From Candidatus Methanomethylophilaceae archaeon (GTDB lineage Archaea; Thermoplasmatota; Thermoplasmata; Methanomassiliicoccales; Methanomethylophilaceae): a stretch of DNA of 36,153 nt. Where the stretch lies: the NCBI GenBank assembly GCA_028694055.1, contig JAQUUA010000004.1, positions 1 through 36,153 of the forward strand. Direction: 5' to 3'. Shown here piece after piece: positions 1,437 through 26,122 of this stretch. Position 1 is the first letter of the stretch. Each line of letters begins with the position of its first letter. The position numbers were made by a program, and so were the translations under genes. The notes under the pieces were generated by a model. It was not told the origin of the DNA, searched no databases, and was given only the letters and a program-made list of their open reading frames with translations.

Positions 1437-3173
1437 TCAGTCCACCAGCATCATGGTGTCGCCGCTCTGCACCAGGTCCCCGTTGGAAACGAAGATGTCC
1501 CTTACCGTTCCATCCCGAGGGCTGCGGAAAGGGTTCTCCATCTTCATGGCCTCCAATATGACCAAAGTGTCGCCCTTCTTCACCTTGCTTCCGCGCTGTA
1601 CGGGGATCTTGAGTACGATCCCGGTCATGTTGCTCTTGACCCCTCCAGGGAGGTCAGGGGCGGGAGGGGCCTTCTCGGCGCTGCCTTTGGATTCGGAAAC
1701 GGCGCCGTCCACGGAGACGATGCGCACCGAGAACATCTCCCCGTCCACCTCCACTTGCATGGAGGAGGGCATGGCCACGGCGGGAGCCAAGGTGCCGGGT
1801 TTCGGAGGAAGGCATTCACACTTCCTCTCTCCCTTCAGGAAGGATGGGGCCACAGCGGGGTATATGATGTAGCTGAGGACGTCCTCCTCCTTCTTCACGA
1901 AGCCCATGTCCATGGCTTCTTTCTTCATCTTCTCGTAGATGGGTTCCAAGAGGTCAGCGGGACGAACGGTGACCACCTCCGCATCACCGATGATGTGGCG
2001 GCGGATCTGCTCCGAGATGGTTTTAGGGGGTTTCCCGTACAATCCCAGGACATAGTCCTTGACTTCTTTGGTGACATTCATGTACCTCTCTCCGGCCAGC
2101 ACGTTCAGGATGGCTTGGGTTCCTACAATCTGGCTGGTGGGGGTAACCAAGGGTGGGAATCCCAGGTCCTCACGTACCTGGGGTATCTCCAGAAGCACCT
2201 CTTCCAAACGGTCGTAGGCGTCCTGTTCCTTCAATTGGGAGATCATGTTGGATATCATTCCCCCTGGGAGCTGATAGAGCAGCACACCGGAGTCCACTCG
2301 CTCTGAGATGGGGTCCACCAGGCCACCGTACTTCTCTCTGAGCTCCATGCAGAGGCCACGGGGCTTCATCAGCCCGTTCAGGTCGATGCCGGTGTCCCTA
2401 GCGGTCCCCTGCACGGCGGCGATGATGCTCTCCGTGGGCGGCTGGGAGGTGCCGAAGGCGAAGGGAGACATGGCGGTGTCCACGATGTCCACGCCAGCCT
2501 CAATGGCCGCCTGATAGCTCATGGGCGCCAAGCCGCTGGTGGAGTGGGAGTGCAGACATACCATGATGTCCAATTTGTCCTTAATGCCGGAGACGATCTC
2601 CACCGCGGCCTGAGGGGTTATGAGGCCAGCCATGTCCTTGATGGCGATGGAGTCGCATTCCAATGCGTAAAGGTCCTCCGCCATCTTGATGAAAGTGGCA
2701 CTGTCGTGCACCGGGCTGGTGGTGTAGCAAATGGTCCCCTGCAGATGCGCACCGTTGTTATGGACCTCCACCATGGACTTCTTCATGTTCCGGAGGTCGT
2801 TAAGGGCGTCGAATACCCGGAAGATGTCCACTCCGTTGTAGGAGGCGGCAGCCACGAACTTCTCCACCACGTCGTCAGGGTAATGGCGATAGCCAACCAG
2901 GTTCTGACCGCGCAGCAACATCTGGATAGGGGTCTTGTCCAGAACGCTCTTGAGCTTCCTCAGGCGTTCCCAAGGGTCCTCCGCCAGGAATCGCATGCTG
3001 GTGTCGAAGGTTGCCCCTCCCCAGGCCTCCAGGGAGAAGAATCCCCGGGAATCCATGCTCTGGGCGAAGTCCAGCATATCGTCCGTGCGCATGCGGGTAG
3101 CGATCAACGACTGATGGGCATCACGTAGGGTCGTGTCGGTTACCTTTAGTCTGGTCGTGGTTTTAGGGGACAT
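1437..3173 (-). CDS. pycB: Pyruvate carboxylase subunit B (carboxyltransferase plus biotinyl domain)
   Basis: This subunit transfers the carboxyl group from biotin to pyruvate, giving oxaloacetate. The N-terminal HMGL-like carboxyltransferase domain starts with [15 protein letters not shown] conserved carboxylase domain follows, and the C-terminal biotinyl domain carries EAMKMEN with the biotinylated lysine at about K544 of 578. The ORF track extends to 3224, but the extra 17 residues resemble nothing in the family. The ATG at 3173 ([18 protein letters not shown]) is the likely start, although no strong Shine-Dalgarno sequence precedes it. pycA follows 13 nt downstream, and the biotin transporter and ligase genes lie just upstream on the same strand. 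An oxaloacetate decarboxylase alpha subunit has the same architecture, but no membrane beta/gamma subunit is nearby. Confidence 0.94.
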
Positions 3174-3240
3174 GAGAGTGACTCGGTGAGTTGTGAAAAA
3201 AACTGTTTCAGCGTAAATCTTCAATACAGTATTAAAGATT
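3174..3240 (-). promoter_or_regulatory. Probable pycB promoter region
   Basis: This 67-bp AT-rich gap lies between the ecfT stop and the pycB ATG. Read on the minus strand it contains a TATA-like CTTTAATA around 3230-3238, about 60 bp before the ATG, which predicts a leader of roughly 30 nt. pycBA may therefore be transcribed independently of the transporter genes as well as by read-through. This is an inference from sequence only. Confidence 0.45.
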
Positions 3241-3873
3241 TTAGTAATAAGACAAAATCGCAGTAGTTAACACCAATAACGATGACAAAGCCAGCAGATA
3301 ATCGATTCTTGCGGTGTGGAAGTGCGGCTCTATCTCACCTCCACGAATGTAGCCCCTTACCGTGAGCATCTTCGCCATCTCTTCCGTGCGCCGGAGCTGG
3401 TTCATGACGATATTGGCCGCCAGAGGGAGGATGGAGAACACCGAGAACTTCATCCCCTTCACGGCCATGGCCTGACGCACTTGCTGTATATCCTGCTTGA
3501 TCAATCCCAGGCTCTGCATCCCCATCTCCGCGGTGAGGCCGATATCGAATCCGATCCGCTTCCCCATCAGCCACACTGAGACATCCAGTAGCTCTCCGTC
3601 CTGCCTCTGGCTGTAGGCCCAGGCAGCTATGAGCAGTATGGCTATCATGCGTACCATGTAAGAGAATCCCTCTCCTCCGCTCAGCTCCGACACTAAGGAT
3701 GTGATGGCAATCATCACCATCACCCAGAGGAGTATACGGGGGTGGGGCAAGGCCTTCCAACGCGGTGTGAGCAGGAGCCACCAAGCCAGAGTCGCCAGTG
3801 CCCCATAGAGACTGATGAATGCCCCGGCGGAAAGCACTATGGTGGTCAGGATCCTCAATCTCGCATCCTGCAT
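3241..3873 (-). CDS. ecfT: ECF transporter T component (CbiQ/EcfT family), biotin uptake
   Basis: This is the membrane scaffold of an energy-coupling factor transporter, linking the two ATPases to the substrate-binding BioY. The 210-residue product has hydrophobic segments at about residues 7-33, 46-60, 75-87 and 190-208. Its cytoplasmic helical region holds the two coupling motifs of this family, seen here as VKG (in RQAMAVKGMKF) and VRG (in AKMLTVRGY). The first is thus a Lys variant of the usual X-R-G. The gene overlaps the preceding ATPase gene by 19 bp and ends the transporter block. BioY upstream makes biotin the likely substrate. The equivalent gene in bacterial biotin systems is bioN. 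Confidence 0.88.
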   Translation of the reverse strand: MQDARLRILTTIVLSAGAFISLYGALATLAWWLLLTPRWKALPHPRILLWVMVMIAITSLVSELSGGEGFSYMVRMIAILLIAAWAYSQRQDGELLDVSVWLMGKRIGFDIGLTAEMGMQSLGLIKQDIQQVRQAMAVKGMKFSVFSILPLAANIVMNQLRRTEEMAKMLTVRGYIRGGEIEPHFHTARIDYLLALSSLLVLTTAILSYY

Positions 3874-4547
3874 ATGGCCTCCCTGGCGTCCTTATGGGTG
3901 ATGTTCTCCGGTCTGGCCCCCGACTGCAATGTTTGACGAATGTAGGGGGGAGCCCCTTGCCATGCCGCTATGGATCCCGGCACCGTTCCATGATGGATGA
4001 GACGTCCGTATTCCACATGCGACAAGGTATCGACCCGGGGCAAAACCGACCTCTCGTGGGAGAACAACAATGTTATCTTCCCTTTTCGGTCTTCGATGGC
4101 CCGGCAAAGCTGGCTCTTGGCCACGCAGTCCAGGGAGCTGAAGGGTTCGTCGAGGATCAGGAGGTCGGGGTCCCGAGCCAGGACACAGGCTAGATTGAGT
4201 CTCTTCAGGCCGCCCCGGCTGAGATGCAGAGGATCGCTGCCTCTCCGATCATCCAAACCGATTCCAGGAAGCACTTGCTCAGGGTCCAGGCCCCATGAGC
4301 GGACCTCATCATCCAGTCTCGAGGCGGTGATATGGTGCTCTGGGAACTGGAAAGACATCAGCACATCCCCCACTCCTTCCTTGTCCAAGCGACCTTGGTA
4401 AGGAATCAGTGACGCCATGGCCAAGGCCAAGGTGGTCTTGCCGCTCCCCACCTGTCCGCTTATCATGTGCACCCCTGGGCCGAATGAGGCTTGGCAAGCA
4501 ACTTGGAACCCGCCTCTTGCCACAATTATGTCCATCTCCATCCTCAT
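3855..4547 (-). CDS. ecfA2: ECF transporter ATPase, second copy (altered signature motif)
   Basis: This is an ABC-type ATPase of the biotin ECF transporter, 230 residues long. Visible motifs are Walker A GQVGSGKTT (about 31-39), Q-loop FQFPEHH (Q67), Walker B LLILDE (about 129-134) and the H-loop histidine in FSHE (H164). The ABC signature is LSRGG (109-113) instead of LSGGQ/E, with Arg replacing the first glycine. The family forms a head-to-tail dimer, so this damaged signature would face the ATP bound by the other subunit. The gene overlaps its partner by 4 bp and ecfT by 19 bp. About 60 C-terminal residues after the H-loop match the usual EcfA length. Confidence 0.88.
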   Translation of the reverse strand: MRMEMDIIVARGGFQVACQASFGPGVHMISGQVGSGKTTLALAMASLIPYQGRLDKEGVGDVLMSFQFPEHHITASRLDDEVRSWGLDPEQVLPGIGLDDRRGSDPLHLSRGGLKRLNLACVLARDPDLLILDEPFSSLDCVAKSQLCRAIEDRKGKITLLFSHERSVLPRVDTLSHVEYGRLIHHGTVPGSIAAWQGAPPYIRQTLQSGARPENITHKDAREAICRMRD

Positions 4548-5212
4548 GGTCCCATCCTCCAGCTGTTTGGATAGAAACAGCTCCCTTCCAGGGCGTGGAA
4601 GACCTCCTGAGGGGGGCCATGCTGGACCACTCTCCCGTTATCCAGGAACAGCACCTCATCCGCTTTCGCTGCCAGATCCATGTCCTGGGTGCAGAAGACA
4701 GTCTGGAATCCGGAATGCAAGATGGAATCAGAAATCAAAGAAGCGCATCTTTCGTCCAGATGGCTGTCCACTTCGTCCAGTATCAGCAGCCTTGGGGGAT
4801 TCACCACCGCCGCGGCATAGGCCACCAGGGCCTTCTCCCCTCCAGAGAGCTCTGCAGTGGCCCTGTCCCATAGATGCAAGGCCCCTAGGGACCGCATGGT
4901 CTCCCGGGCCATGCGCTCAGCCTCTGCTACCGGTACATATGTGAATCGCAAAGAGGAGCATACTTCATCAAACACCCGTGAGAACAGTATGGTGTGGTCT
5001 GGGAACTCTCCCACCCATCCTACCCGCAGCGTCCGAGGCTCTTCCCCGTCCACGGTGATGCTTCCTTCTTTTGGCCGGTCGATGCCTGCCAAGAGTTCCA
5101 GCAGGCTGGTCTTGCCTGCACCGTTCCTCCCGATCAGGGCTACCTTCGGTCCAGCGATGGTCAAGGAAGGTATCTCCAGGAGATGATGTCTGAGTCCCTC
5201 GATATGGATCAT
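4544..5212 (-). CDS. ecfA1: ECF transporter ATPase, first copy (H-loop His and Q-loop Gln replaced)
   Basis: This is the other ABC-type ATPase of the biotin ECF transporter, 222 residues long. Walker A is GRNGAGKTS (28-36), the signature LSGGE (122-126) is intact, and Walker B LLILDE (142-147) keeps its catalytic Glu. Two positions are unusual. The Q-loop reads GEFPDH, so Glu69 aligns with Gln67 of the second ATPase. The H-loop reads CTQDMD, so Gln176 replaces the switch histidine. The start ATG overlaps the bioY stop as ATGA, and the end overlaps the second ATPase by 4 bp, so the block is translationally coupled. The assignment to biotin uptake rests on BioY next to it. Confidence 0.88.
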   Translation of the reverse strand: MIHIEGLRHHLLEIPSLTIAGPKVALIGRNGAGKTSLLELLAGIDRPKEGSITVDGEEPRTLRVGWVGEFPDHTILFSRVFDEVCSSLRFTYVPVAEAERMARETMRSLGALHLWDRATAELSGGEKALVAYAAAVVNPPRLLILDEVDSHLDERCASLISDSILHSGFQTVFCTQDMDLAAKADEVLFLDNGRVVQHGPPQEVFHALEGSCFYPNSWRMGP

Positions 5213-5721
5213 TCCAACCTCTTTCCGATACGGTAGGCGGCAAAGAGCTTCACTGCGTCACCTGGGATGAACGGGACGGCCCCCAGCAAGAACGATTCCA
5301 GTAAAGGTATGGAAGCCGAGAATGAAAGCCAGGAGACCCCGCAGGCGTATATGGCCAAGGTGGCTAGAATCAGGCCGCCTATCCGTACAGAACGGCTCTC
5401 GCTCTCGTACGATAAGCCGGCCAGAGCAGCTGCCGGGATGAATCCTATCAGGAAACCTCCCGTTGGGCCCAGCAGGACGCCCACTCCCGCCGTGCCGTTA
5501 TGGAACAGAGGCAGGTTCAAGGCTCCTAGGGCCACGTAGAGGAGGACGGGTATGGCGGCATGCTTCCTCATCACCACGCCGGCCAGCAGCACGAAGAAGG
5601 TCTGCAGGGTCAGAGGCACGGGGAAGAACGGGATGGACACCCAGCTTCCTGCCGCGATGAGGGCGATGAACGTGGCGCTATAGGAAAGAAGGCTGGCGCG
5701 GTTCACATTCTCCACGCTCAT
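5209..5721 (-). CDS. bioY: BioY, biotin-binding S component of the ECF transporter
   Basis: This is the substrate-capture membrane protein for biotin. The roughly 170-residue, strongly hydrophobic product shows the BioY landmarks PFFPVPLTLQTFFVLLAG near the N-terminus, LGPTGGFLIGF in the middle and PFIPGDAVKLFAAY near the C-terminus. About six membrane segments are expected. The ORF track starts at a GTG at 5724; the ATG directly after it (5721) is the more natural start, and the two differ by one residue. The gene lies 34 nt after birA and overlaps the first ATPase by 4 bp. This placement ties the ECF module to biotin and not to another vitamin. Confidence 0.95.
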   Translation of the reverse strand: MSVENVNRASLLSYSATFIALIAAGSWVSIPFFPVPLTLQTFFVLLAGVVMRKHAAIPVLLYVALGALNLPLFHNGTAGVGVLLGPTGGFLIGFIPAAALAGLSYESESRSVRIGGLILATLAIYACGVSWLSFSASIPLLESFLLGAVPFIPGDAVKLFAAYRIGKRLE

Positions 5722-5755
5722 CACCTATCCGGAAGCCTTCTGAGCCGTGGGGCGT

Positions 5756-6763
5756 CTAGAAGATGTCCCCGGCGAACACTTTCTCGATGACCCCGTTGTC
5801 CTTGCGGACCAAGAGGGCGCCGTGTCTATCGATTCCCACGGCCTCCCCTCGCACCGTCTTCAACAGGGTCTTGACCTGCACACGGCGGTTCAGGGACAGG
5901 CAGATGCTCTTCCACTCCCTCAGGATGGTGTCGTACTCCCCGCTCTCCAGTTGCAGGATGCGCAACTCCAGCTCCTTGAGGACCCTGGCCAGCAGTCGGT
6001 TCCGGTCTATGGTCTCGCCCATCTCGTCCTTCAGGGACACGGCAATGTCCCGCACCTCTTCAGGGAGGTCGGCGATATCGATGTTGGCATCTATGCCCAT
6101 CCCCAGGAGGACGTAGTTCACCTCATCGTCATCCACGGAAATCTCCTGCAGTAACCCTGCCACCTTCTTGGAGCCGATGAAGATGTCGTTAGGCCACTTT
6201 ATGAGGGCGCCGATGTCGTACTCCCTGCGGATGGCACGGGCTATGGCCACAGAGCCAGCCATGGTGACCATGAACAAGCGGTCCACTGGTATCTTGGGCT
6301 TCAAGAGGACCGTGGCCCATATGCCCCCTCGGGGCGAGAACCATTCCCGTCCCATGCGCCCCTGTCCTCCAGTCTGCTCCTCTGCCAGAACAACCAATCC
6401 ATGCAGCTCTTGGGGGTCGCCCTTCTCGGCCATGTCCTTGGCGATGGACAAGGTGGACGGGGTGTTGTCGCGGTAGACGGCCTGATGGCCGATGAAACGG
6501 GTGCGGAGTTGGCGCTTAAGCTCGTATGGCAGGAGAAGGTCGCTACGCCCAATCAGACGGTGGCCTTCGGCAGAGGACTCGATGTCATAACCTAGGCTGG
6601 ACAAGTCCTCAATCAATGCCGCCACCTCGGACGGGTCCACCCCCAGCGTCTCTGCCATCGCCGTGCTGGGGACGGCTTGCTCTGTGCCCTCAAGCATGCC
6701 CAAAGCCTCAAATGCCTTCTCATTCATCTCAAACACCTTCTTCCCAAGTGGTGAACGGGTCAT
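5756..6763 (-). CDS. birA: Biotin--protein ligase with N-terminal winged helix (BirA, group II)
   Basis: This enzyme activates biotin with ATP and attaches it to the lysine of the PycB biotinyl domain. The ligase core shows GGQGRMGREWFSP (about 132-144, the biotinyl-AMP loop), KWPND (189-193) and KKVAGLLQE (199-207), then the small C-terminal domain. Residues 13-75 look like a winged helix-turn-helix, as in bifunctional ligase/repressors, so it may also repress this gene block when biotin is plentiful. The start is uncertain. ATG 6763 has only an overlapping GGTGA, while the in-frame ATG at 6727 (MNEKAFEALGML) has GGTG about 8 nt upstream and fits the usual N-terminus. It is the first gene of the biotin block. 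Confidence 0.94.
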   Translation of the reverse strand: MTRSPLGKKVFEMNEKAFEALGMLEGTEQAVPSTAMAETLGVDPSEVAALIEDLSSLGYDIESSAEGHRLIGRSDLLLPYELKRQLRTRFIGHQAVYRDNTPSTLSIAKDMAEKGDPQELHGLVVLAEEQTGGQGRMGREWFSPRGGIWATVLLKPKIPVDRLFMVTMAGSVAIARAIRREYDIGALIKWPNDIFIGSKKVAGLLQEISVDDDEVNYVLLGMGIDANIDIADLPEEVRDIAVSLKDEMGETIDRNRLLARVLKELELRILQLESGEYDTILREWKSICLSLNRRVQVKTLLKTVRGEAVGIDRHGALLVRKDNGVIEKVFAGDIF

Positions 6764-6942: not shown

Positions 6943-8061
6943 TTAGGTGAGGTCGCCGCCACGGCCGTAGAGCTTCATGCGATACAGCTCGCTCCGGAAA
7001 GCCACATCATCGACGTTGTGACGGTCCACACGTATCACCGGAGGGAGCTCCTCCGGGAAGACGTGCAGCATCTCCTTCAGAAGGTAACGGTCCGGGAAAT
7101 CCGTTTTCTCCAAGCTTTCCCGGTCCCAGGCATCCACCAGGTCATAGACTGCCTCCAGTCCTCCGTTGTAGAAGGCAGCGGCCAGAACCGACACCACCAC
7201 GGCATGCGGCGCCATGACGGCTACGTTGGATTCCCTCACCGCATAGGCGTTCCCGTTGAACGACACCGACAACCCGCCGGAGTCCCGTACCAGGTCCATG
7301 GCCTGGAAGTCAGTTATACCTCCGCCCACGTACATGGTTTCGTCCAGATCTATCATGGTCTTGCGGCGGACGTCCAGGACGGAGTAGGCTTTCTCATTGC
7401 CCCCTATAGGGTTCACAGAGCCCACCAGCTCGTGCACGTCCATGGTCAGCATGTAATCCCAGAAGATCTCGTCCAGACGTGTTATTGTGGCTTGGTCGCG
7501 GGAGGAGAAATCGGAAAGCCCCACGGCAGCCGCCGGTATCTCTGGCACCGGCATGGCGGAGATCTCTTCCGCCAGATCGCGTATCTCCTTCTTCTCCAGG
7601 TCGTCCACCTCCACAGAATCCATCTGCATCTGGGTACAGTAGACGTTGCTGAAGGGGAAGTCTATCTCGTCGCATACGGCCATCATATGATGTTCGTAGG
7701 CGTTGGTGATGATGAATGAGGGCATCAAGCTGTTTAGGTAGCGCATGGTCTTGGCGGCACCTTGAACGAGGTCAAGCCTGTCCCGGGAGAACTTGAGTAT
7801 GGAGCTGTCCGTGGCCCCATAGGCGCACAGGAATGGGAGTACGAGCTTCAGGGTGTCGCCCGCTTTGTAGTTCTCTCGGTTGAATACATAGGATTGGATG
7901 TCATCGTAGCGGGATACGATGCTGAAGAGACGGTCCCCGTCAGGGACGAAGCTCTCACAGAGTTGGTAGGCATTGTCGTTGTTGGTCACCAGTCCTCGGC
8001 ATGTGCCAATGAACTGCTTGTTCTCGATTAGACCCAGCTCCTCCAAGGGATTGAACTCCAT
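6943..8061 (-). CDS. EhaR-like HAD-superfamily protein, probably catalytically inactive
   Basis: The 372-residue product resembles the archaeal HAD family often annotated as energy-converting hydrogenase subunit R (COG4030-like, from memory). Shared stretches are NDNAYQL, FVPDGDRLFSIVSRYDDI, YKAGDTLKLVLPFLCAYG and SGGLSVSFNGNAYAVRE. HAD enzymes need an Asp nucleophile in motif I (DxD/DxE) and an acidic motif IV (GDS..D). Here motif I reads FIGTCRG, with Thr and Arg at the acidic positions, and motif IV reads VGGGITD, losing the first Asp. It therefore looks like a pseudoenzyme with an otherwise intact fold. It starts 2 nt after the formyltransferase stop, so the two should act together. No hydrogenase genes are nearby. 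Confidence 0.7.
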   Translation of the reverse strand: MEFNPLEELGLIENKQFIGTCRGLVTNNDNAYQLCESFVPDGDRLFSIVSRYDDIQSYVFNRENYKAGDTLKLVLPFLCAYGATDSSILKFSRDRLDLVQGAAKTMRYLNSLMPSFIITNAYEHHMMAVCDEIDFPFSNVYCTQMQMDSVEVDDLEKKEIRDLAEEISAMPVPEIPAAAVGLSDFSSRDQATITRLDEIFWDYMLTMDVHELVGSVNPIGGNEKAYSVLDVRRKTMIDLDETMYVGGGITDFQAMDLVRDSGGLSVSFNGNAYAVRESNVAVMAPHAVVVSVLAAAFYNGGLEAVYDLVDAWDRESLEKTDFPDRYLLKEMLHVFPEELPPVIRVDRHNVDDVAFRSELYRMKLYGRGGDLT

Positions 8062-8063
8062 GT

Positions 8064-8897
8064 TCAGAACTCCCCCTCTTCCAAAGAACGGTCGATCTGT
8101 CTGGAAAGGTCGTAAGGCCCATCCAGTTTCCGGTCGCCGGCGTAAAGCGATTGATCCTCGATCCTCACCACTCCCTCGGCGAAGAGTTTGATGCTGTACA
8201 CCACCAGGGGCAGCTCACGGCGGAAACCTTCCGTCCGTATCCTCTTGAACAATGGCTCCTCAGTTCCCTCATTTTCCTTGATGGACTGGAGGGTTTCATT
8301 CTGGAGTTTCTGATCCATGTTCTCCCAGAGCCGATCGAAGCCCGATCCTCGTAGAGGGAAGCGACAGTATGTCAGGGCGGCGCCTCGGTCCCATTCCGGG
8401 GTGCACAGATGCATCATGGTCCCCTGCTCTTCTGCCCCGGACTCTATAAGTTCCCAAATGACCTCCTGCCAGGTGCCTTTTGGACCGTCCGGGAGGGCAG
8501 GATGGAGGTTCATGAGGTCATAGGTCTGGCAAGTCTCATCGTCCACCCAGAGCATGTAACCTGCCAATATCCCCAGGTCGAAATCGTAGGGTTCAAGCAG
8601 GCGGCGCATCTCCTTGCCGTACTCGTTCCTCCAAGATTCCGGGTCGCTGTCCAGGAGTTCAGCTCGGAACTTCTTCCAGGAAAGGGTGACCAACGGTATG
8701 CCATAGGACCGCACCATCTGGAAGAACTCCTCCCTCTGCTCCCGTCGAGGGTTGTCCTCCTCTTGGTTGTCCCAATTACAGAACACGAAGGCCAGCTCCA
8801 CGTCCAATTTGCCTTTGGATTTGTGGTCCATGACCGTGCGCAGCAAATTTCGGGAGCCTGCGCCCCTTCCCGTGGAGAACCAGCCGAGTCTCATCAT
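8064..8897 (-). CDS. Formyltransferase-family protein (PurN-like), substrate unknown
   Basis: This is a member of the formyl_transf_N fold shared by glycinamide ribonucleotide formyltransferase and relatives. It has the N-terminal WFSTGRGAGSRNLL. The catalytic triad appears intact when numbered from the track start at 8903: N132 and H134 in MNLHPALPDGPKGTW, and D172 in PEWDRGAAL. A C-terminal extension of about 90 residues beyond the catalytic domain is unlike canonical PurN. The track starts at GTG 8903; ATG 8897 or 8894 (MRLGWFSTG) is more likely, with GGGTGG just upstream. It is followed 2 nt later by the inactive HAD-like gene and preceded by archease. No purine genes are in the window, so calling it PurN would be premature. 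Confidence 0.75.
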   Translation of the reverse strand: MMRLGWFSTGRGAGSRNLLRTVMDHKSKGKLDVELAFVFCNWDNQEEDNPRREQREEFFQMVRSYGIPLVTLSWKKFRAELLDSDPESWRNEYGKEMRRLLEPYDFDLGILAGYMLWVDDETCQTYDLMNLHPALPDGPKGTWQEVIWELIESGAEEQGTMMHLCTPEWDRGAALTYCRFPLRGSGFDRLWENMDQKLQNETLQSIKENEGTEEPLFKRIRTEGFRRELPLVVYSIKLFAEGVVRIEDQSLYAGDRKLDGPYDLSRQIDRSLEEGEF

Positions 8898-8948
8898 AGC
8901 CACCCGCCAGAATTATGGTCATCCTACATTAAGATTGTATCTTGCTAC

Positions 8949-10287: not shown

Positions 10288-11376
10288 ATGACCGTTTCCA
10301 GGGCCAAGAGGGTCATGAGCCGTGCCGAAGGAGTGGACGCAGTGGTGATCGTCAATTCCCAAGAACCATACCTGGATCCTACTTTCCGTTACCTCACCGA
10401 TAACCAGTCCGGCTTATTCGAAGGTTGTCTCCTGATCCTGCACCCAGATGGAAGCATGGACGCAGTGGTCAGTCGCATGGAGGAGGCCTCGGCGAGGAGA
10501 GGGGAAGGGAGGGTGCATACCTATCAGACTTTGAAGGAGAGGGAGGCCCTAATCACTGAGCTCCTGCAGGGGTGCCGTCGCATCGGCATCAACAGTGGCT
10601 TCATAACAGTTCGTAACGCTGATTCCCTGCAAACGTTATTGCCCTCATCAGAGCTCGTCGACGCCTCGGAGGCCATCTCCGCCACCCGTAGCATAAAGGA
10701 CGATCGGGAGATATCCCGGATCAGAGAGGCTTGCCGCATCAGTTCGATGGTCGCAGACAGGATACCATCGCTATTACATGAAGGGGTCACGGAGATGGAG
10801 GTCCGTAATCAGATAGACATCATGATGCGTGACGGAGGAGGACACGACAACGCCTTCCATACCATCGTGGCATTCGGGGAGGGCGCCGCTGAACCGCACC
10901 ATGACCCCTCCCAACGGGCTCTACGGAAAGGGGACGTCGCCCTCTTCGATTTCGGTTGCCGTTTCGAAGGCTATTGTTCAGACCTTACCCGCACCGTGTT
11001 CTTCGGCCAGCCAGACCCGCGGCTGGCTAAGGCCTATGCCACTGTGAGCAAGGCCAAGCAAGAGGGTATGTCCCTCATCCGAGCGGGCGCCAAAGCCTCC
11101 GATGTGGATGCTCAGGCCAGGAAGGTCATAGATGATTCGGAGTTCAAGGGTCTTTTCACCCATTCCTTCGGACACGAGATCGGCATGAGCGTTCACGAGG
11201 GGGGCTCCCTCAGCTCCCGTTCCGCGCTGATTCTCCGTGCCGGGATGGTGGTCTCCTCGGAGCCGGGGATATACATCGACGGATTGGGCGGGATAAGGAT
11301 TGAGGACACAGTCCTGGTCTTGGAGGACGGCTGCGAGCCTTTGACGGATTTCAATCAGTCCATGACGGTGATCTGA
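10288..11376 (+). CDS. pepQ: Xaa-Pro aminopeptidase/dipeptidase, M24 family
   Basis: This is a metallopeptidase removing residues N-terminal to proline. A creatinase-type N-terminal domain (about residues 1-125) precedes the pita-bread M24 domain. All five metal ligands are visible: Asp in LFDFGCRFEGYCSDLTRT (two Asp), His in HSFGHEIGMSVHEGG, Glu in SSEPGIYI and Glu in GIRIEDTVLV. The track begins at 10231, inside nadX; ATG 10288 (MTVSRAKRVMSRAEGVDAV) with GGTGG just upstream is more likely. Its TGA shares one base with the tldD ATG (TGATG), so the peptide-handling genes are coupled. Confidence 0.9.
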   Translation: MTVSRAKRVMSRAEGVDAVVIVNSQEPYLDPTFRYLTDNQSGLFEGCLLILHPDGSMDAVVSRMEEASARRGEGRVHTYQTLKEREALITELLQGCRRIGINSGFITVRNADSLQTLLPSSELVDASEAISATRSIKDDREISRIREACRISSMVADRIPSLLHEGVTEMEVRNQIDIMMRDGGGHDNAFHTIVAFGEGAAEPHHDPSQRALRKGDVALFDFGCRFEGYCSDLTRTVFFGQPDPRLAKAYATVSKAKQEGMSLIRAGAKASDVDAQARKVIDDSEFKGLFTHSFGHEIGMSVHEGGSLSSRSALILRAGMVVSSEPGIYIDGLGGIRIEDTVLVLEDGCEPLTDFNQSMTVI

Positions 11377-12746
11377 TGGAGGGCCTCCTTCAGCAGGCGC
11401 TTAAACGCATGGAGGTCGGAGACATTGATTTCTGCGATGCCCGTTACCAACGCATCAACGATCTGAACATCCGCAGCCTCAATGGCAGCCTGCGTGAGAT
11501 GTCTGACCGTGGCATGGCCGGGGTATCTCTCCGAGCCCGTTGCGGAGGCGGTTGGGGTTTCGCATCCACCACGTCCTTGGATGGTGATTCCATCAAGGCC
11601 GCGGCAGACAAAGCCGTCCGGAACGCTCTTGCCACTGGTATGGAAGGGCCATTGCTGGAGCCGATAACGTTGAGGAGGCGTTCGAAAGCGGATGCCAGGA
11701 TCCATCCCCACAGCATATCGTTGGAGGAGAAGGTGGCCACAGTTCTGGAACTGGACTCTGCACAATCCCGGGAGGGTGTGATCAACAGGGTGGCTTCCTA
11801 TGTCGAGGAGATAAGGGAGAACCTCTTGCTGAACTCTTACGGCTCTGAGGTCGGTTGGGAGGAGGTCCGCACCCGGCTCCGGGCCATGAGCATCGCCTCC
11901 GACGGCAGCCGTCTGGAGCGCTACTACGACGGCCCGGACGCTTCCGCCGGATTCGAGACCGTGCGGCAGACAGACATCGTGGCCTTGGGAGAGCGGACGG
12001 CAGAGGAGGCAGTGCGTTCACTGAAGTCCATCAAGGCCCCCTCTGGCATGATGACCGTGATATCAGACCCCATGGTCACTGGCCTTCTGGCGCACGAGGT
12101 CATGGGGCATGCCTCGGAAGCGGATGAGGTGGTGAAGAAGAGGTCTTTTCTCAGCAACATGGTGGGCAAGCAGGTCGGCAGCGACCTGGTGACCCTGGTG
12201 GATGACGGCTCCCTGAAGGGGGCACATGGCTACATACCGTTCGATGACGAGGGCACACCCTCCTCCCGCACCGTGGTCATCGAGGATGGAGTCTACAGGA
12301 ACTTCCTGCAGAGCCTGGAGACCGCTGCCCACATGAACGTCGCGCCTACGGGTAATGGCCGATGCGAGAATTTCTCGAGGCGCAACTGGGTGCGCATGAC
12401 CAACACCTTCATCGAGGCCGGTGACTGGAACCTAGAAGAGATGATAGCAGGTGTCGAGGAAGGCATCCTGTGTGAGAAGATGATAAACGGAATGGAGGAT
12501 CCGGTGGGCGGTGGTTTCGAAGCCAAGGTCCTGCGGGGACACCTCATCAGGAACGGCCGCATCGCTGATATGGTGCGTTCATTCACACTCACCGGCCGGG
12601 CCTTGGAGATCCTGGGCACCGTGGATGCGGTGGGGGATGACCTGCAGCACGATGGTGGATACTGTGGTAAAGGCATTGAGGATTGGGTACCGGTCTCCTC
12701 CGGGGGCCCGCATATCCGTTCCCGGATGATCGTGGGAGGTGGATGA
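11376..12746 (+). CDS. tldD: TldD metalloprotease subunit
   Basis: TldD is the zinc-bearing, catalytic half of the TldD/TldE heterodimeric peptidase, known to process unstructured peptides and peptide-derived products such as microcins. The HExxxH zinc motif is visible as HEVMGHASEADEV (about H240-H245). Other family stretches are SLRARCGGGWGFAST near the N-terminus, FDDEGTPSSRTVVIEDG, and the C-terminal region with GGFEAKVLRGHLIRNGRIADMV. The length of 456 residues is normal. The start overlaps the pepQ stop by one base, and tldE begins immediately after the stop, so the pair is co-translated in the expected order. Confidence 0.94.
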   Translation: MEGLLQQALKRMEVGDIDFCDARYQRINDLNIRSLNGSLREMSDRGMAGVSLRARCGGGWGFASTTSLDGDSIKAAADKAVRNALATGMEGPLLEPITLRRRSKADARIHPHSISLEEKVATVLELDSAQSREGVINRVASYVEEIRENLLLNSYGSEVGWEEVRTRLRAMSIASDGSRLERYYDGPDASAGFETVRQTDIVALGERTAEEAVRSLKSIKAPSGMMTVISDPMVTGLLAHEVMGHASEADEVVKKRSFLSNMVGKQVGSDLVTLVDDGSLKGAHGYIPFDDEGTPSSRTVVIEDGVYRNFLQSLETAAHMNVAPTGNGRCENFSRRNWVRMTNTFIEAGDWNLEEMIAGVEEGILCEKMINGMEDPVGGGFEAKVLRGHLIRNGRIADMVRSFTLTGRALEILGTVDAVGDDLQHDGGYCGKGIEDWVPVSSGGPHIRSRMIVGGG

Positions 12747-14069
12747 ATGGACATCCGACAGATCAACGATGCCGCTATACGCATGGCAGGGCCCGACCAA
12801 GGGATGGAATGCTACTCTGTGCTGTGTGAGACCGTCTCCGTCTATGTCGATGATTCCAAGGTGAGCCTGGTGGAGCACAAGACCGAGAAAGGATTGGCCA
12901 TCCAGGTCCTGCAAGGAGCTCGCCTCTGTGCCGCCTCTTCCACTGTCAACGAAGAAAGGGACATCCGTCGCTGTGTGGACCGGGCGATGGCTGCCACCAA
13001 GCTCGCTCCTGACGATCCTCGGGTAAGGGGTTTCGTCCCTCCCCGGTCCCCGTCCCTTCCTGAACTGAATGTCAACGACCGTCGTATCCATGGAATGGAG
13101 GCGGGGGAGCTGGCTTCCTTGGCCATGCAGATCGTGGAAGGATGTGACGCCAAGGTCCCGCGTGGCCTCCTGCGGGCCTCCCGTATCGAGACTGCAGTCA
13201 GCAACACCATGGGCACCGATGTGTGGAGTGAGAGCACCGCGGTCTACGCCCACTTCACATCCATGCTGGACGACCCCTCTCCGGGAGAGGGGACGGAGAG
13301 CTATCACGGTACCCATCTGGACTTTGACCCATCTCGGCTGGGAGGGTCCCTCCGGGCCAAGGCCCGGCATTCTGCCCAGGCCCGGAACCAGAAGGGCCGG
13401 TTGCAGGGTTTGGTCATCATTCCCCCTTCCGAATTGGGGGACATGTTACTATCGTCGGCCGGCTCGGCCTTGAACGGGGAGAACGTGGTGAATGGACGAA
13501 GCCACTGGAGGGGGAGCCTAGGCCAAGACGTGGCATCTCCAGAAGTCACCTTGGTCGACGACCCTCGAATCCCCGGGCCGCTCTGCTCTCGTTTCGATGA
13601 CGAAGGCACCCCGGCCAAGGCCAAGACTCTGGTGCAAGCAGGGGTGCTGCAGTCCTTCCTCTATGACAACTATAACGGAGACTCCACCGGAAACGGCATG
13701 AGGAGGTCTGCCAGCGATGCCCAGGGTTCATACAATCATGCGGTGTCCATCAAGGCCATGAACCTCTGCCTCCTCCCGGGCAGAGGAGGAGTGGAGGACC
13801 TGATATCCCAGACGGACCAAGGAATCCTGGTGGAGAAATTCGCCTGGCCAGAGGCTGACCCCTTCACAGGAAGGTTCGCCTTGGAAGTCCGTTGCGGGCT
13901 CGTGATCCGGAAAGGGGAGGTGGTGGGTTCAGTGAAGAACGCCCTCCTCACCGGGAACATGTTCGATGCCCTGAAACAGGTGGAGTCGATCGGTGCCGAC
14001 ACGGTCTGCACCGGAAACGTGAGCATCCCCACGGTCAGCTTCCGCGGGATGGAGCTGGTCGGGAACTAG
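12747..14069 (+). CDS. tldE: TldE/PmbA, non-catalytic partner of TldD
   Basis: TldE pairs with TldD and lacks the zinc motif. No HExxxH is present; the matching region reads SELGDMLLSSAGSALNGENVV. Family features are VYVDDSKVSLVEHKTEKGLAIQVL near the N-terminus, FDDEGTPAKAKTLVQAGVLQSFLYDNYN and the C-terminal EVRCGLVIRKGEVVGSVKNALLTGN. The ATG directly follows the tldD TGA. The gene ends convergently with a cyclophilin-like gene, the two TAG stops being folded into one CTAG palindrome (14066-14069). Confidence 0.92.
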   Translation: MDIRQINDAAIRMAGPDQGMECYSVLCETVSVYVDDSKVSLVEHKTEKGLAIQVLQGARLCAASSTVNEERDIRRCVDRAMAATKLAPDDPRVRGFVPPRSPSLPELNVNDRRIHGMEAGELASLAMQIVEGCDAKVPRGLLRASRIETAVSNTMGTDVWSESTAVYAHFTSMLDDPSPGEGTESYHGTHLDFDPSRLGGSLRAKARHSAQARNQKGRLQGLVIIPPSELGDMLLSSAGSALNGENVVNGRSHWRGSLGQDVASPEVTLVDDPRIPGPLCSRFDDEGTPAKAKTLVQAGVLQSFLYDNYNGDSTGNGMRRSASDAQGSYNHAVSIKAMNLCLLPGRGGVEDLISQTDQGILVEKFAWPEADPFTGRFALEVRCGLVIRKGEVVGSVKNALLTGNMFDALKQVESIGADTVCTGNVSIPTVSFRGMELVGN

Positions 14070-19516: not shown

Positions 19517-20740
19517 ATGAAGGAGTTCAATACGCTGGATGATTTCGACTTCAGAGACAAGACCGTGTTGTTGCGGGTGGATATAAACTGCCCCTTGGAC
19601 AGGGAGTCCCTCATCATCACCAACGACTCCCGTATCCGTAAGATCGCCCCCACCGTCACCGAGCTGTCGTCCAAGTCGGCCAAACTAGTCATCCTCGCTC
19701 ACCAGAGCCGTAAGGGCAAATGGGACTTCATACCCCTGCAACAACATGCTGAGGCTCTGGCCCGATACACCCGGAGGGAGGTCCGTTTCGTTCCGGACAT
19801 CATCGGGAATCCCGCACAGGCCGCCATCAGATCCATGCAACCGGGGGAAATAATCCTCCTGGACAACGTCCGCAACCTAGACTGCGAGACAGAGAAGAAG
19901 AGCATGCAGGACCACTCCCAGTCGGAGCTGGTCAAAGCGTTGGCGCCATTGGCAGACTACTACATCTGTGATGCTTTCGGGGCTGCCCACCGTTCCCAGT
20001 GCTCATTGGTCGGTTTCCAGGCGCGCTTGCCATCTGCGGCCGGGCGTCTGATGGCCAAGGAGCTCTACGCCTTGCGCTCGGTATTCGATGAGCCGCGACG
20101 GCCCTCCACCTTCATCCTAGGAGGAGCCAAGTTCGGCGACTCCTCGCCTATGATAGACCATGTCCTGGGAACCGGGAAGGCAGACCGGGTCATCCTGGTC
20201 GGTTTGGCAGGGAACGCCTTCATCAAAGCCATGGGGGTGGATCTTGGATCGGCCAGTGAAGCGGCCTTGAAGGAAGAGTTCACGGACGCCAACCTGCAGG
20301 CCGCCAAGCAGATGCTCCAGAAGTACGGGCCAAGGATACTCTTGCCACAGGACATCGCCGTGGAGAAGGATGGGGAGAGGGTGGAGGTCCCGATTGGGGA
20401 CCTGCCATACTCGGAGCCGGCCTTGGACATCGGCAAGGCATCCATGGAGAAGTTCTGTAAGGTCATACAGTGCTCGGGAACATGTTTCATGTCCGGTCCG
20501 GCGGGGATGTATGAGAAGGTCGGCTTCGGCGAGGGGACCAAGGCCTTGATGCTGGCCATGATCGACAGCGGCGGTCAGGCAGTCATCGGAGGCGGACACA
20601 CCGTGGGTGCGGCCGACCTATTCGACCTCACAGACCGTTTCTCGTACGTGAGTACCGCCGGAGGGGCGTTGGAGACCTATCTCCTGGGTAAGCCCCTGCC
20701 GGCGGTGGAGGCGTTGAAGCACTCCTGCCGTTGTCTATAG
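19517..20740 (+). CDS. pgk: Phosphoglycerate kinase
   Basis: This enzyme transfers phosphate between 1,3-bisphosphoglycerate and ADP. Motifs are TVLLRVDINCPLD, NDSRIRKIAPTV, LVILAHQSRKG, ILLDNVRNLDCE, DAFGAAHRSQCSLVGF, LGGAKFGDSSPMIDHVL and the nucleotide-binding GGGHTVGAADLF. The length of about 407 residues fits archaeal enzymes. The track begins at 19454, within the intergenic hairpin. Two adjacent ATGs (19514, 19517) follow GGGGAG; the second has the better 6-nt spacing. It follows gap and ends convergently with dapL, the two TAG stops forming the palindrome CTATAG. Confidence 0.95.
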   Translation: MKEFNTLDDFDFRDKTVLLRVDINCPLDRESLIITNDSRIRKIAPTVTELSSKSAKLVILAHQSRKGKWDFIPLQQHAEALARYTRREVRFVPDIIGNPAQAAIRSMQPGEIILLDNVRNLDCETEKKSMQDHSQSELVKALAPLADYYICDAFGAAHRSQCSLVGFQARLPSAAGRLMAKELYALRSVFDEPRRPSTFILGGAKFGDSSPMIDHVLGTGKADRVILVGLAGNAFIKAMGVDLGSASEAALKEEFTDANLQAAKQMLQKYGPRILLPQDIAVEKDGERVEVPIGDLPYSEPALDIGKASMEKFCKVIQCSGTCFMSGPAGMYEKVGFGEGTKALMLAMIDSGGQAVIGGGHTVGAADLFDLTDRFSYVSTAGGALETYLLGKPLPAVEALKHSCRCL

Positions 20741-21889
20741 TCCCGATTCCTTCATGCGCTCCAGGGCTTCCAGGATCCGCTCCGATGGCTGGGTCAAGGC
20801 CACTCTCACGTATCCTTGTCCAGCGTCGCCGAATCCCACTCCCGGGGTGAACACCAGGCCCAGGTTCAACATCTTCTCTGTGAACTTCATGGAATCCATG
20901 CCGCAATCGAACCAGACATAGAATGTGGCCTTGGGCATAGGCACATCGAAGCCCATCTCCCGCAGTCCTTTCACCAGGATCTCCCGCCTCTGGGCGTAGA
21001 CCTCCATGTTCTCGGTGATGATGTCCGGTAGCTTGCGTCCCTTGTACATCCCCAAGGCGTAAGCCGCAGCCTCCTGGATGAACATCGGTGCTCCCGAGTC
21101 GATCTGGGACTTCACTTTCTTCAGGCCGGCTATGAGGCGTTCGTCGCCCACGGCGTATCCGATGCGGTAGCCGGTCATGTTGAAGGTCTTGGACAGTGAA
21201 CCGAACTCGATCACGTCCCTTCCGGCCTCCAACGCGGAAGGAGCCAGATATCCATCGAAACACATCTCGGAATAGGCGTTGTCGTAGCAGAATATGGTGT
21301 CCGTGTCCTTGCACCATTGCATGACGCTCTTGAGATAGTCCAGGTCGCATACTGCCCCGGTGGGGTTGTTAGGATAGTTCAGGTAGAGCATCTTGGCATC
21401 CGTGGGACACTCCGCGGTATCCAGGAGGAAGCCGTTCTCCGCTCGCAGGGGCACTTTCACTGGAATGGCATCGGACAGCACGGCAGCTCCGGCAGCGTAT
21501 ACCGGATAGGCCGGATCTGGGGAGATGACCTTCTCACCAGCGTTCACGAAGGCCTTGCAGATGTTTGCTATGGCCTCTTTGGAACCGATGGTGATGCACA
21601 CCTCCTTCCGGGGATCCACGTCCACACCGAAGCGGACCTTGTACCAGTCGGCCACGGCCTTACGGAGGTAGAACTCCCCGGCGCTGGAGGAGTAGGGGTG
21701 GTTCTCCGGCTTGGCCACAGCGTCCTGGACCGCTTTCACTATAGGCTCAGGGGTGGGGAGGTCGGGGTCCCCGATACCGAAATCGATGATGTCCACGCCC
21801 TCGGCCCTCTTGGCCTCTGTGAGCTCCTCCAGGCGTGCGAAGAGATATGGCGGCAGCTTCTGTAGTCTGTCAGCGAATTTGATTTCCAT
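20735..21889 (-). CDS. dapL: LL-diaminopimelate aminotransferase
   Basis: This is a PLP enzyme that converts tetrahydrodipicolinate directly to LL-diaminopimelate using glutamate, bypassing the succinyl and acetyl branches. It is a class I/II aminotransferase with FGIGDPDLPTP near the N-terminus, YPNNPTGAVCD, CYDNAYSEMCFDG, and the PLP lysine in FGSLSKTFNMTGYRIGYA. It ends with GYVRVALTQP. The assignment to DapL over other family I aminotransferases rests on the position as last gene of a lysine operon that contains dapA, dapB and dapF but no dapC, dapD or dapE. It starts 4 nt after dapF. Confidence 0.9.
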   Translation of the reverse strand: MEIKFADRLQKLPPYLFARLEELTEAKRAEGVDIIDFGIGDPDLPTPEPIVKAVQDAVAKPENHPYSSSAGEFYLRKAVADWYKVRFGVDVDPRKEVCITIGSKEAIANICKAFVNAGEKVISPDPAYPVYAAGAAVLSDAIPVKVPLRAENGFLLDTAECPTDAKMLYLNYPNNPTGAVCDLDYLKSVMQWCKDTDTIFCYDNAYSEMCFDGYLAPSALEAGRDVIEFGSLSKTFNMTGYRIGYAVGDERLIAGLKKVKSQIDSGAPMFIQEAAAYALGMYKGRKLPDIITENMEVYAQRREILVKGLREMGFDVPMPKATFYVWFDCGMDSMKFTEKMLNLGLVFTPGVGFGDAGQGYVRVALTQPSERILEALERMKESGL

Positions 21890-21893
21890 TGTT

Positions 21894-22721
21894 TCACCTC
21901 ATGAGTTTGCCCTTGAATACTATTTCGGCTGGCCCGTTCATGGTCACGGAGCGCAGCCCGCTCTCGACGGTGATGCGGAGCATGCCTCCGGGTAGGAAGA
22001 CCTCCACCGGGCTGTCGTAGGGGACTATGCCCTTCAAGGCCGCCGCCACCGCTGTGGCGCAGGCCCCGGTCCCACAGGCCAATGTCCATCCCGCCCCTCT
22101 CTCGAAGACCCGTACATACAGGCGGCCTCCCCTCTCGGTGACGAATTCCACATTGGTCTTGCGGGGGAACAGGGGATGGTGTTCGATGTACGGTCCCAGC
22201 TCCTCCACATCCTCGTCAGAGAGGTCGTCGAAGGTCACGAAGTGAGGGTTGCCCATGGACACCGCGGTCCCCATGACGTCCCCTACCGGTACCGGAAGGG
22301 GAGAGTCCAGGAACTGTCCGTCGCTGTCCATCGGTATGCGTCGGCAATCCAGCTCCGGTGCCCCCATGTTCACCTCCACCATGGTGACTCCGTTCTCCTC
22401 CTGGAGGTTTATGGACATCACCCCGGCCAGGGTGTCGATGGTCATGCTGCGATCCGTTACCAGGTCATGGTCGAAGAGGTGCTTGGCCATGCAACGGATG
22501 CCGTTGCCGCACATCTCGGCCTCCGAGCCATCAGCATTCATGATGCGCATGGCATAATCCGCCTTCTCCGACGGGCAGACGTACAGTATGCCGTCCGCCC
22601 CTACTCCGAAACGGCGGTCACAGACCTCGGTCACGAAGTCAGCATCCATGGGGATGCTGCCATCCAGGTTCTCGAAGAGGACGAAATCGTTGCCCAGCCC
22701 GTGGTACTTCCAGAAGTTCAT
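21894..22721 (-). CDS. dapF: Diaminopimelate epimerase
   Basis: This cofactor-free epimerase turns LL- into meso-diaminopimelate with two active-site cysteines. Both are visible: MCGNGIRCMAKHL (first Cys) and TLACGTGACATAVAAAL (second Cys). The start MNFWKYHGLGNDFVL and the paired-domain length of 275 residues are standard. The start overlaps the lysA stop by 4 bp, and dapL follows 4 nt later. It supplies the meso isomer to LysA, encoded just upstream. Confidence 0.96.
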   Translation of the reverse strand: MNFWKYHGLGNDFVLFENLDGSIPMDADFVTEVCDRRFGVGADGILYVCPSEKADYAMRIMNADGSEAEMCGNGIRCMAKHLFDHDLVTDRSMTIDTLAGVMSINLQEENGVTMVEVNMGAPELDCRRIPMDSDGQFLDSPLPVPVGDVMGTAVSMGNPHFVTFDDLSDEDVEELGPYIEHHPLFPRKTNVEFVTERGGRLYVRVFERGAGWTLACGTGACATAVAAALKGIVPYDSPVEVFLPGGMLRITVESGLRSVTMNGPAEIVFKGKLMR

Positions 22722-23986
22722 TGCTGCAGCCTCCCCGGCACGGTCTGGTGGCGCCAGATGTCATCCATGTCCTCCCTCTCCCGGATCAGCTCTGCTTGAC
22801 CCTGGTTCACCAAAGCCTCGCGGCAACGAGGCCGGGAGTTGTAATTGCTGCTCATCACGAAGCCGTAAGCACCGGCATCATAGACGGCCAAGAGGTCGCC
22901 CTCCTCCGGCTCCGGCAGAACCCGGTCCCGAGCCAGATAATCACCGGACTCGCATATGGGCCCCACCACATCGAACTTCCGCTCGCAGGCCCGATTGAAC
23001 TTGTTGGCGATGGCCACGTGGTGATAGGAGTCGTAGAAGGCAGGGCGGATGAGGGTGTTGAAACCGGCGTCCACCCCGATGAAGTTCTTCTCCGGGGTGG
23101 TCTTGATATCCACACAGCGGGTAAGCAGGACGGTGCTGTCGCAGATGATGTAGCGACCTGGCTCCACATAAAGGGTCTCGACCTCCGTCTCCTCCTTTAT
23201 CATGTCCGTTATGGTCATGGCCAGCTCATCCACTTCCATCACCGGGTCGTGTGGACGGTATGGGACGCCGATGCCGCCTCCCATGTCCAGGAAGCGTAGG
23301 GACAAACCCAGCTGGTCCTTGATTTCATTGACGGTGTCGATCATGATGCCGATCAAATCCATGAAAGGCTCCACCGATTGTCCGCCGGACCCAATATGGG
23401 CGTGCAGGCCTTGGGGTTCGAACCCTAGATCCAGAGCCTCACGGTAAGCATCGATTATACTCTCCCGCGGTATGCCGAACTTGGAACCTTTGGCCCCTGT
23501 CACCACCTTGGGGTGGTGGCCGGAGCCCACGCCGGGGGTGACCCGGAAGGATATCGGCACATCGGTGGATATTTCTGCCAGACGGCGTAGCTCCGAGAAG
23601 GAGTCCACGTTGACCGGCACACCGGCCTTAACCACCTGACGCAGCTCCTCTGTAGACACGTTCACACCGGTGTATAGGATACGGTCAGGACTGAAACCGG
23701 CCTTCATGCAGGTCTGCACCTCACCGATGGACACGGCGTCTATGCCGCTGCCCTCCTGCTCCAGGATCCGCAGTATCGCCAGGTTGCTGTTGGCCTTGCA
23801 GGCGTACATGATACGGGTGTCCATGTGCCGGGAGAAGGCGGAGTGGATGCGACGGTAGTTCTCTCGTAGAGCCTGCTCATCTGTGACGTAAAGCGGGGTG
23901 CCGTAGCTCTCCGCTAGGCCCCAGGCGGAAACACCGCCGATGATCATCTGATTGTCTTTAGACTCGAATTCTCTCACTTCAAACAC
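22718..23986 (-). CDS. lysA: Diaminopimelate decarboxylase
   Basis: This is a PLP-dependent decarboxylase of the alanine racemase fold, making L-lysine from meso-diaminopimelate. Visible features are YGTPLYVTDEQAL, the PLP lysine in YACKANSNLAIL, VNVDSFSEL, GLHAHIGSGG, and FLDMGGGIGVPY. VEPGRYIICDS and the substrate-binding GPICESGDYLARDR follow. The length of 422 residues is normal. It overlaps lysC upstream by 8 bp and dapF downstream by 4 bp. Confidence 0.96.
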   Translation of the reverse strand: MFEVREFESKDNQMIIGGVSAWGLAESYGTPLYVTDEQALRENYRRIHSAFSRHMDTRIMYACKANSNLAILRILEQEGSGIDAVSIGEVQTCMKAGFSPDRILYTGVNVSTEELRQVVKAGVPVNVDSFSELRRLAEISTDVPISFRVTPGVGSGHHPKVVTGAKGSKFGIPRESIIDAYREALDLGFEPQGLHAHIGSGGQSVEPFMDLIGIMIDTVNEIKDQLGLSLRFLDMGGGIGVPYRPHDPVMEVDELAMTITDMIKEETEVETLYVEPGRYIICDSTVLLTRCVDIKTTPEKNFIGVDAGFNTLIRPAFYDSYHHVAIANKFNRACERKFDVVGPICESGDYLARDRVLPEPEEGDLLAVYDAGAYGFVMSSNYNSRPRCREALVNQGQAELIREREDMDDIWRHQTVPGRLQQ

Positions 23987-25334: not shown

Positions 25335-26110
25335 AGGTTCAGCACCTCTCTCATGCTATGCAGTTCTCCATCCCTCTTATCTGCAATCCAGTTTATGGCC
25401 TCCACACATCCGCGGGCGAAGGCCTCCCTGGATACGGCTCTATGGGTGACTTCCAATCTCTCCATGTTACCAGCGAAGATGACGGTGTGGTCGCCCACAA
25501 CGTCTCCAGCGCGCAGGGAGTGTACCCCGATCTCCCTTCCTCTCTTCTCGGCCTTCCCCTCCCGTCCATGTCGGACGGCCTCTATTCCGGTGACCGCCTG
25601 CATGGCCCGAACGGCCTCCATGGCAGTCCCAGACGGGGAATCCTTCTTCTGATTATGATGTATGTCTATCAACTCGATGTCGTAACCCGGCAGGGATGAA
25701 GCCATCATCTCGCAGAGGCGCCAGAACAGGTTCACCCCCAGGGAGAAGTTGGCGGACATCAGCGCAGAATTGTTCGTCTTTTTCAGGGCTTCCTTCAGGG
25801 ACCGTACCGCCTCTTCATCCACGGCTGTGGTTCCCACCACCAGGTTGGTGTTGGTATCTGGGATAGAGGGTATGAGACGGGAAGCGGCATCCGGGGTCGT
25901 GAGGTCCACATAGACATCAGCATCTGCCAGGCATGACCGGACGGCATCCGGGCCGCAGGCCACCACGCCGGGGTACAGCTCCTTGCCGACATTGCCGCCC
26001 TGGCTGGAGACTATCGCTCCTGTCAGGTCCATTCGGGAGTCCTCCAGTATCAGCTGGCAAACCATGCGTCCCAGCTTACCGGTGGCACCTCCCACCACCA
26101 CATTGATCAT
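25331..26110 (-). CDS. dapB: 4-hydroxy-tetrahydrodipicolinate reductase
   Basis: This enzyme reduces the DapA product to tetrahydrodipicolinate with NAD(P)H. The Rossmann motif is VVVGGATGKLGRMV, and the active-site signature IDIHHNQKKDSPSGTAM contains the catalytic His and Lys. ANFSLGVNLFWRL and the C-terminal RAFARG-like segment (SREAFARGCVEAINWI) also match. The length of 259 residues is normal. dapA ends 12 nt upstream, and lysC overlaps the end by 4 bp. Confidence 0.95.
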   Translation of the reverse strand: MINVVVGGATGKLGRMVCQLILEDSRMDLTGAIVSSQGGNVGKELYPGVVACGPDAVRSCLADADVYVDLTTPDAASRLIPSIPDTNTNLVVGTTAVDEEAVRSLKEALKKTNNSALMSANFSLGVNLFWRLCEMMASSLPGYDIELIDIHHNQKKDSPSGTAMEAVRAMQAVTGIEAVRHGREGKAEKRGREIGVHSLRAGDVVGDHTVIFAGNMERLEVTHRAVSREAFARGCVEAINWIADKRDGELHSMREVLNL

Positions 26111-26122
26111 GGGCCAAACCTC

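Follow-up and report, generated by a model that had tools for sequence, protein, structure and literature searches.

HAD proteins form one of the largest enzyme superfamilies, and in one member, the phosphoserine phosphatase (PSP) of M. jannaschii, the key residues are D11, D13, S99, K144, D167, and D171. The closest described relative of the protein analysed here is AF1437 of Archaeoglobus fulgidus (PDB 1Y8A), an uncharacterised HAD protein of the same family by sequence and fold. AF1437 retains intact motifs (TDWEGP and GDSISD), whereas the present protein reads TCRGL and GGGITD. The SerB and ThrH phosphoserine phosphatases offer the next best folds, and their motifs II to IV align. Unlike them, the present protein has a larger cap and C-terminal part and lacks the catalytic acids. 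The product of the adjacent gene, a formyltransferase (FT), resembles the PurN GAR transformylase in its Formyl_trans_N domain and in the N-x-H-P and Asp residues. It differs from PurN in carrying additional C-terminal sequence, for a length of about 280 aa, and in its coupling to HAD and PfkB-family genes.

Phosphatase folds maintained after the loss of catalytic residues, a state like that of the present protein, are represented by STYX, MK-STYX, the PTP D2 domains, and PHLPP2, in which the fold is reported to be used for binding or regulation. Those examples act among the protein phosphatases of eukaryotes and have other folds, whereas the present case concerns archaea and a HAD protein encoded in a metabolic operon. 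A literature search on HAD pseudoenzymes found nothing to the point. To our knowledge, a replicated series of conversions from HAD enzyme to pseudoenzyme is rare.

The window is a stretch of 36,153 nucleotides from a Candidatus Methanomethylophilaceae archaeon (contig JAQUUA010000004.1), whose genome is a 1.33 Mb draft, 84% complete. Methyl-coenzyme M reductase is present in 53 of 61 genomes, this one included, in keeping with Methanomassiliicoccales. Elsewhere in the window, positions 1437-6763 hold an apparent biotin block, with a biotin protein ligase (Pfam) followed by BioY-, ECF-transporter-, and pyruvate-carboxylase-B-like ORFs (by eye). Two adjoining ORFs at 11376-14069 resemble a TldD/TldE-type pair by eye, and 20735-27001 on the minus strand carries a run that looks like the lysine/aspartate pathway (aminotransferase, dapF-, lysA-, aspartokinase-, dapB-, and dapA-like, by eye).

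A SerB-type HAD protein and its active site

The features of the HAD gene are as follows.

6943..8061, minus strand: HAD protein with a degenerate active site (SerB-type, AF1437 family), 372 aa, ATG start
7990..8013, minus strand: motif I, FIGTCRGL, residues 17-24; T20 for the nucleophile D, R22 for the acid E
7699..7713, minus strand: motif II, IITNA, residues 117-121; T119 kept, S/T in 48/48 of the family
7387..7404, minus strand: motif III, GGNEKA, residues 220-225; K224 kept, 47/48 of the family
7309..7329, minus strand: motif IV, VGGGITD, residues 245-251; G247 for the metal-ligand D; D251 kept, 48/48

The first-pass annotation placed this ORF at the correct coordinates and strand, and a homologue is present in 59 of 61 relatives. 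In a sequence search, AF1437 was the only clear solved relative (E 2e-24). A profile of homologues from the order and class matched 1Y8A at 3e-55, with phosphoserine phosphatases weaker, and SerB motifs II to IV aligned in the profile search. An AlphaFold2 model built on a 41-sequence alignment reached a mean pLDDT of 91. Its top fold match in the PDB was again 1Y8A (TM 0.91 by target length), with SerB structures next and ThrH lower down. Similarity to AF1437 in sequence and fold is significant across most of the protein's length. Because the sequence, profile, and fold matches all lead to 1Y8A, and the latter two then to phosphoserine phosphatases, the window protein is a SerB-type HAD protein. 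No Pfam family matched it, even at E 1, and its score against the SerB equivalog TIGR00338 was 13.2 bits, below the cut-off of 144.15. A match to AmmeMemoRadiSam protein B (NCBIfam, 15.5 bits, below cut-off) was rejected since the profile and fold searches point to HAD. The first-pass annotation had called the protein EhaR-like; no Pfam or NCBIfam model named COG4030/EhaR matches it. A literature search on COG4030 returned no paper, and searches on EhaR and AF1437 gave unrelated matches only.

The reference state of the active site was taken from named bacterial and archaeal homologues, the best 80 of 462 relatives when an intact sequence served as the query for ranking. Motifs I and IV were not directly selected for, since the peptide patterns in the scan came from elsewhere in the protein. 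The named loci come from Dehalococcoidia and other Chloroflexota, Ammonifex, Desulfotomaculum, Methanocellales, Methanophagales, Altiarchaeota, Hydrothermarchaeota, and others. Among these best 80 of 462, motif IV reads GDSITD without exception, and the 79 loci that include motif I all read D-[LM]-E-G-P there; none of these homologues from outside the order has non-acidic residues at these positions. The class-level outgroups (families f19, f20, and f23) are intact as well.

Alignment with the homologues places T20, R22, and G247 at the family's D, E, and D positions. It bears out the first-pass reading that motif I (FIGTCRG) has Thr and Arg for its acids and that motif IV reads VGGGITD in place of VGDSITD. 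The intact motif I given there, SDCEGP-like, was close: members of the order read TDGEGP, TDCEGP, or SDGEGP. With TCRGL and GGGITD, the window protein is related to the AF1437 family by descent but does not share its active site.

Measured against what an active HAD phosphatase needs, the nucleophile Asp (T20) and the metal-binding Asp of motif IV (G247) are absent, while the Ser/Thr of motif II (T119) and the Lys of motif III (K224) are present. In the alignment, K224 falls in the part of M. jannaschii PSP that contains the Lys of motif III. In HAD phosphatases, the lost residues are the nucleophile, general acid/base, and metal ligand, and the retained Ser/Thr and Lys hold the phosphate. Judged by these residues, the window protein very probably has no phosphatase activity. 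As the alignment has it, the missing acids are not a sequencing error, because close relatives lack them too. Out of 58 positions invariant in intact homologues, 11 are altered in the window protein, and all three catalytic ones are included (chance 0.005), which argues that their loss is more than random drift.

Loss of the catalytic acids across the order

Families and genera are coded f and g; the family of the window is f1 (48 sequences). The nucleophile D is kept in one of the 48 and is otherwise S, N, T, G, E, or C. The second acid position carries R, L, Q, W, or other residues, with E or D in three of 48, and the first Asp of motif IV (position 247) is kept in one of 48, being mostly G or S and also T, C, or N. 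Retained throughout or nearly so are the motif II S/T (48/48), the motif III K (47/48), and the last D of motif IV (48/48). The first-pass annotation had asked whether close relatives share the changes. By the f1 alignment they do, and the loss of the active site is family-wide rather than special to the window gene. The sole nucleophile exception is L048 (1501-2592), which reads LDCDGV, a D-x-D, with the metal ligand lost (GSDVDD). This D-x-D may be a retention or a reversion.

This pattern also bears on whether the protein could be an enzyme of altered chemistry, in which a changed substrate is attacked by a different residue, such as cysteine 21, or by a water that D251 activates. T119, K224, and D251 are indeed kept, and a cysteine lies between the two lost acids in 30 of the 48 f1 members. 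However, position 20 (S, N, T, G, E, C) and position 247 (G, S, T, C, N) vary freely, which is unlike a new catalytic site, and cysteine 21 is not constant and also occurs in an intact motif, TDCEGP (L065). Altered chemistry is therefore very unlikely. A C-x-C that many f1 members have in motif I was separately considered as a new metal site and dropped, as it is missing in many others, the window protein included.

Outside f1, partial states of motif I occur: SDLQGP (g15), SECEGA and SECDGA (g21), SLDGA (g28), SNGEGP (g26), SNCEGT and STVEGS (g23), and TNCNGP (f4). A tree of the order made by a quick method with the motif columns excluded requires five or more switches of state, intact versus lost. 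They are read as losses because the outgroups are intact, which gives a minimum of five losses of the intact site within the order. In one g26 sequence (L010), a single one of the 58 invariant positions differs from the intact set, and it is the nucleophile itself (D20N). This fits the expectation if catalysis goes first.

The adjacent formyltransferase and a three-gene cassette

Two further features lie directly upstream of the HAD gene.

8064..8903, minus strand: PurN-like formyltransferase FT, directly upstream of HAD; Formyl_trans_N, 44.8 bits
8949..9404, minus strand: ORF taken to be archease-like; usually the next gene upstream of FT in f1 (4 kb loci)

In the window, the TGA stop of FT lies 2 bp ahead of the ATG of the HAD gene. 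Aligned to the E. coli GAR transformylase, FT keeps the active-site N-x-H-P and Asp, and the catalytic N, H, and D are conserved in 57 of 58 members of the order and outgroups. Its score against the PurN equivalog TIGR00639 (45.6 bits) does not reach the cut-off of 150.1. FT is directly upstream of HAD in all 49 testable f1 loci, with gaps of -82 to 17 bp that fall within 25 bp in 48 of them; two other f1 pieces stop at contig edges and were left out of this count. In g15, g21, and f6, HAD is kept without an adjoining FT, so FT is not the sole reason for its retention.

A dead phosphatase whose role has nothing to do with FT, such as one that binds RNA or some other protein, its place beside FT being inherited operon order, would account for the genomes with HAD and no adjoining FT, and the archease-like gene is a steady neighbour too. 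Against it stand the near-touching ends of FT and HAD in every testable f1 locus, the pairing of the two in bacteria, and their joint absence in g22, which lead us to regard an FT-unrelated role as unlikely. The two g22 genomes (G049 and G055), both only about 80% complete, lack HAD, FT, and the cassette kinase described below.

Each f1 genome sampled has at most one PF00551 gene, and that one is FT. PurD is present in f1, and a search for PurT as the alternative GAR transformylase gave no relative above cut-off. FT is the best candidate for the f1 GAR transformylase on these grounds. That it serves these cells in this role, though far below the PurN equivalog cut-off, is about evenly balanced. 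Three bacteria that carry the cassette were also inspected, Ammonifex and two Dehalococcoidia; their PF00551 genes besides FT resemble Fmt or a relative of it, and no ordinary PurN was seen. A literature search on purN in Methanomassiliicoccales or Dehalococcoides found nothing to the point. As a separate observation, two classes of PurN-like formyltransferase occur in the order (G037-G060): an operon type in f1, f3, f4, and f5, and a second, diverged one that is about 42% identical and is located elsewhere in g15, g21, and f6. One genome (G057) has both.

In the named loci from the best 80 of 462 relatives, 36 of 79 have FT as the immediate upstream neighbour of HAD, and 52 of 79 have a gene for a PfkB-family kinase near HAD and in the same orientation, in most cases directly downstream. 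Ahead of FT there is often a gene for a PHP-domain-like protein. In Dehalococcoidia, the cassette often sits between efp and clpP/tig (names by eye; loci L102-L181). Some methanogen-like archaea have the order HAD-PfkB-Ftr, and f23 has FolC-, MeTr-, and MetF-like genes nearby (names by eye in both cases). From these neighbours, we infer that the cassette is tied to formyl and pterin chemistry. As read from gene order, the cross-domain cassette of formyltransferase, HAD, and PfkB kinase is new in this analysis; no paper describing a cassette of PHP-like protein, PurN-like formyltransferase, HAD, and PfkB was found in the literature search.

Within the order, the presence of the kinase follows the state of the HAD active site. 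The cassette kinase is found in f3, f5, f6, and g25 (E < 1e-45 in all but g19, where the copy is more diverged) and was not found in f1, g15, g21, and f4. All 18 scored genomes with an intact HAD have it, and 48 of 52 with a degenerate HAD lack it, the four exceptions being in g26, g23 (two), and g19. A prediction made in advance was correct for four of four genomes: an intact one (g27) with the kinase and degenerate ones (g28, g21, and g15) without. Two to three independent contrasts are concordant and none is discordant, numbers so few that a sign test cannot reach significance. The correlation suggests why catalysis became dispensable.

Retention, selection, and a proposed role

All 44 good genomes have the HAD gene, which is retained in at least a dozen genera, with reading frames open in nearly all. 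In one f1 genome (G212:C7:10929-12203), the HAD match is split in two, possibly a frameshifted or broken copy. The first-pass annotation expected low dN/dS, and in close pairs of f1 the value for HAD is 0.05-0.11 (pairwise, Nei-Gojobori), about that of the neighbouring FT with its intact active site (0.06-0.18 in the same pairs). In an intact f5 pair, the comparison of HAD and FT gave 0.026 and 0.049. Wider pairs in g4 and g12 have medians near 0.4, considered unreliable since dS is apparently underestimated at such divergence. A loss common to orthologues in a gene under purifying selection, as expected of a pseudophosphatase, is what is found.

Over longer times, the picture differs between parts of f1. 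In the subclade of the window (g1, g9, and g14), HAD and FT have diverged to the same degree, with identities of 70.9% for HAD and 68.7% for FT. Among the other f1 members (44 of 48), HAD has diverged much faster (43% versus 68% for FT), and on average 29 of the 58 once-invariant positions have changed. Raised long-term divergence together with low dN/dS in close pairs indicates that the long-term constraint on HAD is weakened or shifted in most of f1, with short-term selection still strong. Weakened constraint and a new role would each account for the faster divergence.

Slow decay would explain several of these observations: with the kinase gone, the phosphatase would have no substrate, and the gene would be a relic yet to be deleted. 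The rate at which HAD outpaces FT in most of f1, the many altered invariant positions there, and the absence of all three genes from g22 agree with this. A relic, however, would not be expected in every good genome and in so many genera with open frames, nor with close-pair dN/dS at or below that of FT, nor diverging no faster than FT in the subclade of the window itself. These points make slow decay distinctly improbable.

The overall explanation that fits best, and that we consider probable, is a maintained pseudophosphatase acting as a probable phospho-ligand-binding partner of FT. Its first half is the reading given in the first-pass annotation and is supported by the family-wide loss, the low dN/dS, and the invariance of the acidic residues outside the order. 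The ancestor would have been a Mg-dependent SerB-like HAD phosphatase, working in a cassette whose two other genes encoded a PurN-like FT and a PfkB-family kinase. In the methanogen lineage of the window, the kinase would have been lost, and HAD would have lost its nucleophile (D20T), second acid (E22R), and metal ligand (D247G), keeping its fold and cap, Asp251, and, for phosphate binding, Thr119 and Lys224. Its present role would most likely be non-catalytic, as a subunit or regulator of the adjoining FT, with a phosphorylated compound as ligand that resembles either what the ancestral enzyme acted on or what FT acts on.

The grounds for proposing a non-catalytic FT partner are the coupling of the two genes and the retention of the residues that bind phosphate. 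A physical or regulatory partnership of HAD with FT falls a little short of an even chance, and phospho-ligand binding by the window protein is a somewhat more tentative suggestion. A broader and rather doubtful scheme would unite FT, HAD, and PfkB in a single cross-domain pathway or complex, so far undescribed, with control over formyl transfer; the kinase would add a phosphate to a ligand and the phosphatase would remove it. In methanogens without the kinase, the phosphatase would have become, repeatedly and in parallel, a dead sensor subunit of FT.

Intact, one-residue-changed, and fully degenerate orthologues coexist within one methanogen order, and with such a series the steps of the conversion become directly testable. 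The conserved cassette of formyltransferase, HAD, and PfkB, common to methanogens, Dehalococcoidia, and other anaerobic bacteria, hints at a function in one-carbon or purine metabolism.
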